DNA of 64,000 nt from Gammaproteobacteria bacterium DTU037 (GTDB lineage: Bacteria > Pseudomonadota > Gammaproteobacteria > Pseudomonadales > Pseudomonadaceae). The translations under genes and the position numbers were made by a program. The stretch is taken from assembly GCA_001513025.1 (NCBI GenBank), contig LFRZ01000019.1, forward strand, positions 1 to 64,000, read 5' to 3'. Below the pieces are notes generated by a model. That model worked only from the letters and a program-made list of their open reading frames with translations, had not been told where the DNA came from and searched no databases. This document shows positions 59,505 to 63,354 of the stretch, piece by piece (positions within the stretch are counted from its first letter, which is position 1; the number at the start of each line of letters is the position of its first letter).

Positions 59505-59645
59505 ATGAAGCGTATTCTGCTTCCGTTTCTTATGTTATCGGTGATGCTGTTGGGCTTAACGGCTTGTGGTCAAAAAGGTCCGCTCTATCATCCGGATGAT
59601 GAAAAAGCTGCGCATGAACACCGTAAAGATCGTTATGAACTCTAA
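59505..59645 (+). CDS. lptM: LPS translocon maturation lipoprotein LptM (YifL-like)
   Basis: Short lipoprotein [18 protein letters not shown]; start at MKRILLPF. Confidence 0.9.
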
Positions 59646-59656
59646 TGGGGGCGAAC

Positions 59657-60907
59657 ATGCAAGCATTTACCTATAAAAACGCTGAATTACATGCAGAGAA
59701 TGTTGCCTTGACGGCAATTGCACAGCAGTTTGGCACGCCCACCTATGTTTATTCACGGGCACATATTGAAGCACAATACCGCAGCTATGCTGATGCTTTA
59801 CAAGGTGTTGAGCATTTGGTTTGTTTTGCCGTAAAAGCCAATTCTAATCTTGCCGTGTTAAATGTTTTAGCACGCTTGGGTGCAGGCTTTGACATTGTGT
59901 CGCTTGGCGAATTAGAGCGGGTCCTGGCTGCCGGGGGCTTACCTGAGAAAATAGTGTTTTCGGGGGTTGGCAAAACTCGCGAAGAAATGCAGCGCGCACT
60001 GGAAGTGGGTGTGCATTGCTTTAACGTTGAGTCGGTTGATGAGCTGGATCGTCTGCAAGATGTTGCAGCACACATGGGCGTGCTGGCGCCGGTTTCTCTG
60101 CGCGTGAATCCCGATGTGGATGCTGGTACTCATCCATATATTTCGACCGGTCTAAAAGACAATAAATTTGGTATTGATATCAATATTGCCGAGTCGGTCT
60201 ATCAGCATGCGGCCACTTTGAGTCATATTGACATCAAAGGGGTGGATTGCCATATTGGTTCGCAATTAACCTCATTGACGCCTTTTCTAGATGCGCTGGA
60301 TCGGGTCTTATTGTTGGTTGATCGTTTGGCTGAGAATGGCATTGCGATCCGTCACTTGGATTTGGGCGGCGGCTTAGGTGTGCGCTATCAAGATGAGCAG
60401 CCGCCTTGTGCGGGTGACTATATGGCGGCGGTGCGTGAGCGTGTTGCGGGCCGTCAGCTGGCTTTGGTGTTTGAGCCGGGTCGCTATATTGTGGCCAATG
60501 CTGGTGTGTTGCTGATGCAGGTGGAATACCTTAAGCATACCGAATATAAAGATTTTGCCATTGTTGATGCGGCGATGAATGACATGCTGCGTCCGGCCTT
60601 GTATCAAGCCTGGATGGATGTGCAAGCGGTACAGCCACGTAGTGGTACGACACGTTGTTATGACATTGTTGGGCCTGTCTGCGAGACTGGGGACTTCTTA
60701 GCTAAAGAGCGTGATATGGCCTTAGCTGAAGGCGATTTACTGGCCTTATGCTCCGCGGGTGCGTACGGTTTTGTGATGAGTTCCAATTACAACAGTCGCG
60801 GCCGCGCTGCTGAAGTGCTTGTGGATGGCGAGCAGGCGTACTTGGTACGTCGGCGTGAAACCATTGAAGAATTGTACGCCCTCGAAAGCCTACTGCCGGA
60901 GTCATAA
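59657..60907 (+). CDS. lysA: Diaminopimelate decarboxylase
   Basis: PLP Lys in LVCFAVKANSNLAVL; GPVCETGDFLAKERD; start at MQAFTYKN. Confidence 0.96.
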   Translation: MQAFTYKNAELHAENVALTAIAQQFGTPTYVYSRAHIEAQYRSYADALQGVEHLVCFAVKANSNLAVLNVLARLGAGFDIVSLGELERVLAAGGLPEKIVFSGVGKTREEMQRALEVGVHCFNVESVDELDRLQDVAAHMGVLAPVSLRVNPDVDAGTHPYISTGLKDNKFGIDINIAESVYQHAATLSHIDIKGVDCHIGSQLTSLTPFLDALDRVLLLVDRLAENGIAIRHLDLGGGLGVRYQDEQPPCAGDYMAAVRERVAGRQLALVFEPGRYIVANAGVLLMQVEYLKHTEYKDFAIVDAAMNDMLRPALYQAWMDVQAVQPRSGTTRCYDIVGPVCETGDFLAKERDMALAEGDLLALCSAGAYGFVMSSNYNSRGRAAEVLVDGEQAYLVRRRETIEELYALESLLPES

Positions 60908-60908
60908 C

Positions 60909-61742
60909 ATGCTCTTGCGTTTTACCAAAATGCATGGCGTGGGCAATGATTTAATGGTGCTGGATTTAATCAGTCAGCACGCGTATATCCAGCCGCAGCA
61001 TGTCCGCGCGTGGAGTGATCGGCGTACGGGTGTGGGTTTTCGGCGTTTGGCGTTGATTGAGGTGCCACAGCATCCCGATGTTGACTTTAGTTGCCGCATG
61101 TTTGATCAGGACGGTGCCGAGGTTGATTGGTTGGCCAGTGATCTATGCTGTGTGGCGCGCTTGGTTGCCGATAAACGCCTGATCTCTAAAGCGCAGATGC
61201 GCGTTGAGCTGCGCCATGCGGTGATTGACGTGCAGGTGCATACGGATGGTTCGGTGTCTGTGCCGCTGGAGCGGCCGGATACTTTGACCGATCCTATTGC
61301 CTTGCCGCGTGGCTTTATTGAGCAGCAAGGGCAATCTTCTTGGCTATTGGCTAATGGGTTTAGTATGTTGTCGAGCCATGGGTTGCATGCGGTGCTGCAG
61401 GTGTCTGATCTGAGCCAAGTGCCGATGGCCGCGTTAGCTGACTATCTCGAACGGCATACGTGTTTACCGCGCGGCACTACTGTTAGCGCGGTGCAGGTGC
61501 AAGACAGTCATAATCTGAGTGTGCTGATTTGGCAGCTGGGGGTGGGTGCTGTTGATAGTTTTCATCCGGCTTTATGTGCTATTGCTGTATCGGCAATGGC
61601 GCAAGGCTGGGTCAATCAACAGGTGCATATTGCATTTACCGATGGCAAAACCAGGGCCTGGTTGCAGTGCTTAGACACTGAGCGCTATCTACAGTTTACC
61701 GGCTCGGCAACTCGTATTTATGAAGGGCAGGTTCGTTTATGA
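60909..61742 (+). CDS. DapF-like protein lacking both canonical catalytic-Cys motifs
   Basis: MLLRFTKMHGVGNDLMVLDLISQ...FSCRMFDQDGAEVDWLASDLCCVARLV...IWQLGVGAVDSFHPALCAIAV...[18 protein letters not shown]; DapF fold markers without AxCGNGxR and ERGxGxTxACGTG. Confidence 0.88.
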   Translation: MLLRFTKMHGVGNDLMVLDLISQHAYIQPQHVRAWSDRRTGVGFRRLALIEVPQHPDVDFSCRMFDQDGAEVDWLASDLCCVARLVADKRLISKAQMRVELRHAVIDVQVHTDGSVSVPLERPDTLTDPIALPRGFIEQQGQSSWLLANGFSMLSSHGLHAVLQVSDLSQVPMAALADYLERHTCLPRGTTVSAVQVQDSHNLSVLIWQLGVGAVDSFHPALCAIAVSAMAQGWVNQQVHIAFTDGKTRAWLQCLDTERYLQFTGSATRIYEGQVRL

Positions 61743-62437
61743 GCAAGAAGCAGCAGGTAAAGCCGGCCGTGGCTGAAGAGCAAGTGGTGGCTTATTTAAG
61801 CGCGCATCCTGAGTTTTTTGTGACTCAGGATGCGTTGCTGGCGCAGTTGCGTATTCCGCATCAGCGCGGTGATTCAATTTCTTTGGTGGAGCGGCAGATA
61901 GCGCTCTTGCGTGAACGCAACAGCGATCTGAGCAAGCGCTTAACCCATTTGCTGGATATGGCGCGCGATAATGGCCGTCTATTTGATAAAACCAAGCGTC
62001 TTGTTTTAGAAATGCTGGATGCGCAGACCCTCGATGAGTTGGTTGGGGTGGTAGATGACAGCTTACGTCATTCGTTTGGCGTACCTTTTGTCGGCTTGAC
62101 CCTGTTTAGTGAGCAGTCAGTGGGTGCTGGCCGCAGTCAAACCTTAAAATCTGCACAGCAGAATATTGCCGGTGTGCTGGGCGGTGCTAAAGCGCTGTGT
62201 GGCGTCTTGCGTCCTAAAGAACTGGTGTTCTTATTTGGTCAAGAACAGGCGGAGCAGATCAAGTCGGCAGCGGTGGTAGTGCTTGAACACCAAGGCCTGC
62301 AAGGTGTGCTGGCGGTGGGCAGTAGTGATCCTCAGCACTACAGTCACTCGGTTGATACCTTATTCTTAAGTTATCTCGCCGATGTTCTGGCGCGTTTATT
62401 ACCGGCCATGTTGGCAGCATTACGTGCGGTGAAATAA
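61739..62437 (+). CDS. DUF484 (GAF-like) family protein
   Basis: [49 protein letters not shown]; between dapF-like and xerC. Confidence 0.94.
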
Positions 62438-62460
62438 ATGCTTATTGTGTGGGGTGCAGC

Positions 62461-63354
62461 ATGCAGCTTCAGCTAGCGGCTTACATTGAGTATTTGCAGT
62501 CTGAGCGCCAAGTCTCTGCGCATACTTTAAGTGCTTATCACAGTGACTTGGCTAAAGTGTTGGATTTCACCCAGCAACAGCATGTCGATACTTGGGGTGA
62601 GTTGCAGGTTGCGCATGTGCGGCAGCTGGTGGCTCAGCTGCATAAAGGCGGTTTGTCTGGGCGCAGCATTGCGCGCTTATTGTCTGCAGTACGTGGTTTA
62701 TATGCCTACTTAGTGCGCGAAGGGCTATGTCAGCACGATCCTGCCGCAGGGATTAGGCCGCCAAAAGGGCCTCGTAAACTACCTAAAGTCCTCGATGTCG
62801 ATCGCGCCCAGCAGTTGCTGGACAGTCCGGTCGCTGATGATTTTTCTGCCTGCCGTGACCATGCTATTTTAGAGTTGTTGTACTCCTCGGGTTTGCGCCT
62901 GTCGGAGTTGGTCGGCTTAAATCGTGCTGATATCGATTTAGCACAAGGCTTGGTCTTAGTGCTGGGTAAAGGTAATAAACAGCGCTTGCTCCCCGTCGGC
63001 AGTAAAGCGATTGCCGCTGTGCAGCACTGGCTGACTGTACGTGATCAGGTTCAATCCCATGATCAAGCTTTATTTATTGGCGTGCGTGGGCGACGTATGA
63101 GTCCGCAATTGGTGCGTGAGCGAGTGCGTCAAGCGGGCGCGCGTGAGCTGGGTCAGCATCTGCATCCGCATATGTTAAGGCATTCTTTTGCCAGTCATAT
63201 CCTTGAGTCATCCCATGATTTACGTGCTGTGCAAGAATTACTGGGGCATACGGATATCAGTACTACACAAATTTATACGCACCTTGATTTTCAGCATTTA
63301 GCCCAAGTTTATGATCAAGCTCACCCACGCGCGAGGCGTAAACCAACAGAATGA
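62461..63354 (+). CDS. xerC: Site-specific tyrosine recombinase XerC
   Basis: Catalytic motifs [40 protein letters not shown]; start at [12 protein letters not shown]. Confidence 0.96.

Follow-up and report, generated by a model that had tools for sequence, protein, structure and literature searches.

What does a cell keep when the gene in the dapF position of its lysA operon stays open and the two catalytic cysteines of the enzyme are gone? The question is raised by one locus in the 64,000-nucleotide stretch of DNA analysed here (the window), for which a first-pass annotation had described an intact DapF-like open reading frame in the order lysA-dapF-DUF484-xerC. The reading frame and its neighbours are as described. 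We call the product psDapF. Its ATG start lies 1 nt after lysA and its stop overlaps the start of DUF484 in an ATGA of 4 nt, an overlap that is also present at four sister-genus loci and makes translational coupling possible. The locus and its parts, all on the plus strand, are as follows.

59645-60907, plus strand: lysA, the intact upstream neighbour, which uses meso-DAP
60909-61742, plus strand: psDapF, a DapF-like pseudoenzyme of 277 aa, uninterrupted and with no internal stop
60909-61259, plus strand: N-lobe, residues 1-117, strongly conserved (pN/pS 0.106)
61122-61160, plus strand: former first catalytic loop, VDWLASDLCCVAR, with C73 replaced by L75 (alignments)
61260-61697, plus strand: C-lobe, residues 118-263, relaxed and fast-evolving (pN/pS 0.445)
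61533-61577, plus strand: former second catalytic loop, QLGVGAVDSFHPALC, with C217 replaced by F218 and E208 by Q209 (alignments)
61698-61739, plus strand: C-terminal strand, residues 264-277, conserved like the N-lobe (pN/pS 0.143)
61739-61742, plus strand: 4-nt ATGA stop/start overlap of psDapF with DUF484
61739-62437, plus strand: DUF484 gene, the downstream neighbour (PF04340 in relatives)
62449-63354, plus strand: xerC, after DUF484

Descent from DapF is evident in both sequence and fold. The protein matches Pfam PF01678 above the cut-off, shares about 40% identity with Pseudomonas DapF and yields an AlphaFold2 model (pLDDT 89.2, pTM 0.84) whose top Foldseek match is P. aeruginosa DapF (8qzy, TM 0.85). 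Its likeness to canonical DapF (TIGR00652) extends to locus, length and the dimer residues R36 and Y268; it differs in lacking the catalytic Cys pair, in a replaced pocket, in a relaxed C-lobe and in a score of 106.8 bits, below the NCBIfam equivalog cut-off of 114.65.

The extent of active-site loss was read from an alignment with 96 canonical DapF sequences, using E. coli numbering. Catalytic C73 has become L75 and C217 has become F218. At the first loop the neighbouring G74 and N75 are A76 and S77, followed by D78, and at the second E208, R209, G218 and T/S219 are Q209, L210, H219 and P220. These assignments agree with the first-pass readings of Cys to Leu and GNG to ASD at one loop, and of Cys to Phe with loss of the ERG..T region at the other. 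Elsewhere in the site Q44 is replaced by R46, N64 by D66, N157 by G158 and N190 by T191, and the only survivors among the listed substrate-site residues are N11 (N13) and H159 (H160). These residues, which from established knowledge of the family we take to be DAP-binding, are invariant across the 96 canonical sequences with the exception of S/T219. From the DAP-contact set N11, Q44, N64, N157, N190, E208 and R209, the window protein retains N11 alone, and in the sister genus that position is Asp. The Cys pair is missing from all 11 distinct psDapF sequences of the genus. The supported reading of these alignments is a DapF-fold pseudoenzyme that would be unable to use the two-Cys mechanism, as the first-pass annotation had proposed, since both cysteines and nearly every substrate-binding residue are replaced. 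A sequencing error, which it had named as an outcome that would overturn this reading, was rejected: relatives whose genomes were assembled independently carry these replacements too, including a Denitrificimonas caeni RefSeq record (NZ_CAJHOA010000002.1).

The altered gene is a property of a clade. In the genus, to which Denitrificimonas caeni belongs, psDapF was found in 12/12 searched genomes, and in a sister genus (g8) in 4/4, each time between lysA and DUF484; two carriers (G003 and G006) are single-contig genomes. The reading frame is intact in all 16. The sister-genus copies, read from the lysA-DUF484 interval, are more diverged than those of the genus, and one of them (G047, L099:4114-4713) is a protein of 199 aa that retains the N-lobe and C-terminal strand and has lost most of the C-lobe. 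In a survey of 149 genomes of the family, canonical DapF was present nearly everywhere outside the genus, the exception being g8, with weak or no matches; one surveyed assembly with no DapF match (G049) is 78% complete. Probably, psDapF descends vertically from the DapF of the lysA operon and has become a conserved pseudoenzyme.

How, then, is meso-DAP supplied? The first-pass annotation had supposed that a competent epimerase is encoded elsewhere, and this was not upheld in that form. A second gene, dapF2, occurs in 4/12 genus genomes: that of the window (C94:135902-136692; L001, L104), G001, G002 and G007. It adjoins an NAD synthase gene, and its copies retain the motifs EQCGNGARC and ACGSG. 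In a tree built by maximum likelihood, the intact copies of G001, G002 and G007 group with gammaproteobacteria from outside the Pseudomonadaceae (100/99 branch), separate from the native genes of that family, and dapF2 was therefore probably acquired horizontally. The search of the window's own genome for a second dapF with catalytic motifs thus returned a gene, but a frameshifted one, which lacks 1 nt near codon 102 and diverges at its 3' end; an assembly error in this one genome is possible. A second competent epimerase was rejected as the general answer, as 8/12 genus genomes have none, psDapF being their sole PF01678 protein, and the window's own copy is frameshifted.

The general replacement is instead meso-DAP dehydrogenase (Ddh). 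Profile searches, on which all gene absences given here rest, compared the 16 clade genomes (12 genus, 4 sister) with 5 canonical controls. Ddh is present in 11/12 genus genomes, the one miss being an 82%-complete assembly, and in 4/4 sister genomes, and is missing from 4/5 controls; the copy in the window's own genome scores 480 bits against a TIGR01921 cut-off of 180.6. Because Ddh bypasses the epimerase step, meso-DAP can still be made without an epimerase. The expectation that a cell with an intact lysA still makes meso-DAP was thus sound, with Ddh in 15/16 genomes. In the genus, as in the window's own genome (L090:3276-4262, contig C86), ddh is part of the tryptophan operon, flanked by trpE and trpG. 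Wherever the flank was available in either genus, ddh directly adjoins trpE, except for a diverged copy in G011 (L054; 66% identity to the others), for which no trpE neighbour was found and which is possibly a contaminant contig (the assembly is 76% complete with 4% contamination) or a second transfer. The simplest reading is that ddh was gained once, in the common ancestor of both genera.

The remainder of the succinylase branch has been dismantled, a point beyond the first-pass annotation. dapE exceeds its cut-off in 0/16 clade genomes versus 5/5 controls, with one weak 27-bit match in G002; dapC does so in 0/16 versus 4/5; and dapD was found in 0/4 sister genomes and only below the cut-off in 12/12 genus genomes. 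The clade shares the tetrahydrodipicolinate to meso-DAP route of the known Ddh bypass (TIGR01921; Corynebacterium and Ureibacillus type), and here the bypass replaces the succinylase branch through loss of dapC and dapE, whereas it coexists with the full branch in control G015, where ddh is located elsewhere and not at trpE. These findings bear on whether psDapF could still be a DAP epimerase that works by a Cys-free mechanism and is needed where canonical dapF is absent. The eight genus genomes that hold no other PF01678 protein would fit such a role, but neither acid/base cysteine and hardly any DAP-contact residue survives, Ddh gives meso-DAP directly, and the dapC and dapE genes needed to make LL-DAP are gone; we regard this explanation as highly improbable.

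A DapD-like protein accompanies these losses in 12/12 genus genomes (L078:2765-3754; C2:12764-13753 in the window's own genome). Full-length copies reach 395-421 bits, short of the cut-off of 518. Relative to PaDapD, Glu221 is replaced by Asp, Arg223 by Cys and Arg317 mostly by Tyr; the CoA-phosphate residues Lys289 and Lys304 are also replaced, a loop is shortened by 2 to 3 residues and the C-terminal helix is gone. Its omega is 0.074 despite the loss of dapC and dapE. It is probably another remnant of the succinylase branch that has been conserved in a catalytically altered form.

Selection was examined on the two lobes of psDapF. Omega, estimated with a codon model (iqtree) and approximate given that synonymous sites are near saturation, was 0.057 for residues 1-115, 0.185 for the rest and 0.148 for the whole protein; the same halves of canonical DapF gave 0.036 and 0.098, and comparison genes gave 0.043 (lysA), 0.073 (xerC), 0.105 (DUF484) and 0.060 (Ddh). 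Pairwise pN/pS within the genus showed the same division, at 0.11 for residues 1-115 against 0.42 for the other residues. With the N-lobe taken, as in the H. influenzae structure, to be residues 1-117 plus the last strand, pN/pS was 0.106 (0.071-0.146) in the N-lobe, 0.445 (0.388-0.496) in the C-lobe and 0.143 in the C-terminal strand. Positions outside the site that are invariant in canonical DapF follow this pattern, 26/46 being retained in the N-lobe and 7/47 in the C-lobe. As pS is equal in the two halves (0.66 and 0.675), the constraint acts on the protein and not on DNA or RNA. psDapF is under protein-level purifying selection that is split by lobe, and a constraint that is mainly one-lobed is again a point that the first-pass annotation did not contain.

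This evidence also disposes of nucleotide-level constraint, which was rejected on the equality of pS. That a sequencing error or a nucleotide-level element (an overlapping gene or an RNA) lies behind the conservation has a negligible probability in our view, given the agreement of independent assemblies and the equal, saturated pS of both halves. Nor is psDapF a lone pseudogene, an outcome that had been envisaged as fatal to the pseudoenzyme reading: relatives share the replaced loops with low dN/dS, and the protein is clade-wide and intact. It combines an intact reading frame with an omega well below 1 across species, as expected of a pseudoenzyme and not of a pseudogene. A subtler form of decay would be a slowly eroding remnant whose frame stays open only through translational coupling, via the ATGA, to DUF484 and xerC. 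The conserved overlap, the relaxed C-lobe, mostly deleted in G047, and the weaker N-lobe constraint in the sister genus (pN/pS 0.36 in the N-lobe versus 0.47 in the C-lobe) are all compatible with such a remnant. Coupling, however, requires an open frame and not specific residues, the N-lobe omega equals that of working enzymes, and intact frames in 16/16 species are accompanied by derived residues fixed across two genera; we therefore consider this explanation unlikely.

The derived residues form a set of seven, each fixed in at least 14/15 psDapF sequences from both genera and each found in <5% of the 96 canonical sequences: F13 to L15, Q44 to R46, Y60 to C62, N64 to D66, G76 to D78, R78 to C80 and E208 to Q209. 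D78 is fixed in 15/15 and C80 in 14/15. Most of these positions line the old pocket, and we see in them signs of reuse rather than decay. Q44 and N64 of DapF normally contact the substrate, and a salt bridge between their replacements R46 and D66 may close off the former DAP site. Alternatively, the N-lobe half of the pocket (R46, C62, D66, D78 and C80/C81) may have been rebuilt for a metal or another small molecule; psDapF would then be a novel enzyme or a sensor of some ligand. The fixation of mostly pocket-lining residues, two Cys and two Asp among them, would suit this explanation, as would the capacity of the DapF fold to host other chemistries: PhzF and hydroxyproline enzymes are among the structural matches. 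PhzF, hydroxyproline epimerase and O-ureidoserine racemase (7vdy) have the fold in common with psDapF, but they are far more distant from it in sequence than is Pseudomonas DapF, and they retain a two-lobed active site. The active site of the DapF fold lies between the two lobes, one of which is fast-evolving here and nearly absent in G047, and each of C80 and C81 has another residue in one species. On balance a new enzyme or sensor seems to us rather doubtful, if less so than a decaying remnant.

Residues of the dimer interface are retained. R36 is kept as R38 in 15/15 psDapF sequences, and the position of Y268, which is Y271 in the C-terminal strand of the window protein, is Y or F in 15/15. 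In E. coli DapF, double mutation of R36 and Y268 disrupts the dimer (PMC7144940). Together, these features make a retained, non-catalytic N-lobe dimer used in protein interaction the likeliest reading of the psDapF sequence. Against this reading, the new residues round the pocket might just as well reflect a new ligand, and the sister-genus N-lobe is less constrained.

The course of events that we propose starts with steps that are well supported: Ddh was gained beside trpE in the common ancestor of the genus and its sister; the succinylase branch was then no longer needed, with loss of dapC and dapE and loss or alteration of dapD; DapF was stripped of its Cys pair and its substrate pocket; and purifying selection held the frame open, above all in the N-lobe and C-terminal strand. 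We infer that psDapF acts without catalysis, its N-lobe dimer binding another protein. In its general outline, a pseudoenzyme kept under selection after replacement by Ddh, this account is probably correct.

The identity of a partner is a separate and much more tentative step, at which the gene may have been retained as an mRNA-decay factor once its metabolic job had been taken over. E. coli DapF is an RppH-stimulating factor (Lee 2014, PMC4227774); RppH-DapF complexes are 6d13 and 6vck; and to our knowledge, catalysis-independent stimulation of RppH is the only documented precedent for a non-catalytic DapF function. RppH is the likeliest candidate partner because catalytically dead E. coli DapF, DapF(C73&217A), still forms a complex with RppH and stimulates it (PMC4227774). 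As binding of RppH by E. coli DapF is independent of the DapF dimer (PMC7144940), the retained dimer residues are no evidence for RppH. RppH is encoded in 16/16 clade genomes and every control (21/21 searched), so its presence does not discriminate. The analogy is one of a DapF protein that would work without epimerase activity in a cell that has RppH; the difference is that E. coli DapF is also the cell's epimerase, while psDapF is without catalysis and its RppH interaction is putative. For this step alone we hold RppH to be a possible partner, though a rather doubtful one.

No DapF pseudoenzyme was described by title or abstract in the open-licence literature searched. The parts are known, namely pseudoenzymes, the Ddh bypass and DapF moonlighting; absent from that literature is their combination, a clade-wide, one-lobe DapF pseudoenzyme that follows replacement of the pathway. 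psDapF could, more speculatively, be a natural separation of function, with one working lobe in a non-metabolic role (RppH control of RNA decay or binding of a new ligand) that was kept or gained once epimerisation had passed to an enzyme acquired horizontally, and with the DapD-like protein persisting as a second survivor.

The locus carries a caution for annotation, since 'dapF next to lysA' can mislead, and the DAP route in these bacteria is via Ddh. DapF moonlights on RppH, but because it also serves in peptidoglycan synthesis the two functions are difficult to tell apart in vivo. In this clade they appear to have come apart, with catalysis gone and the protein kept, and identifying what selection preserves in psDapF would reveal a function of DapF that is independent of the cell wall.
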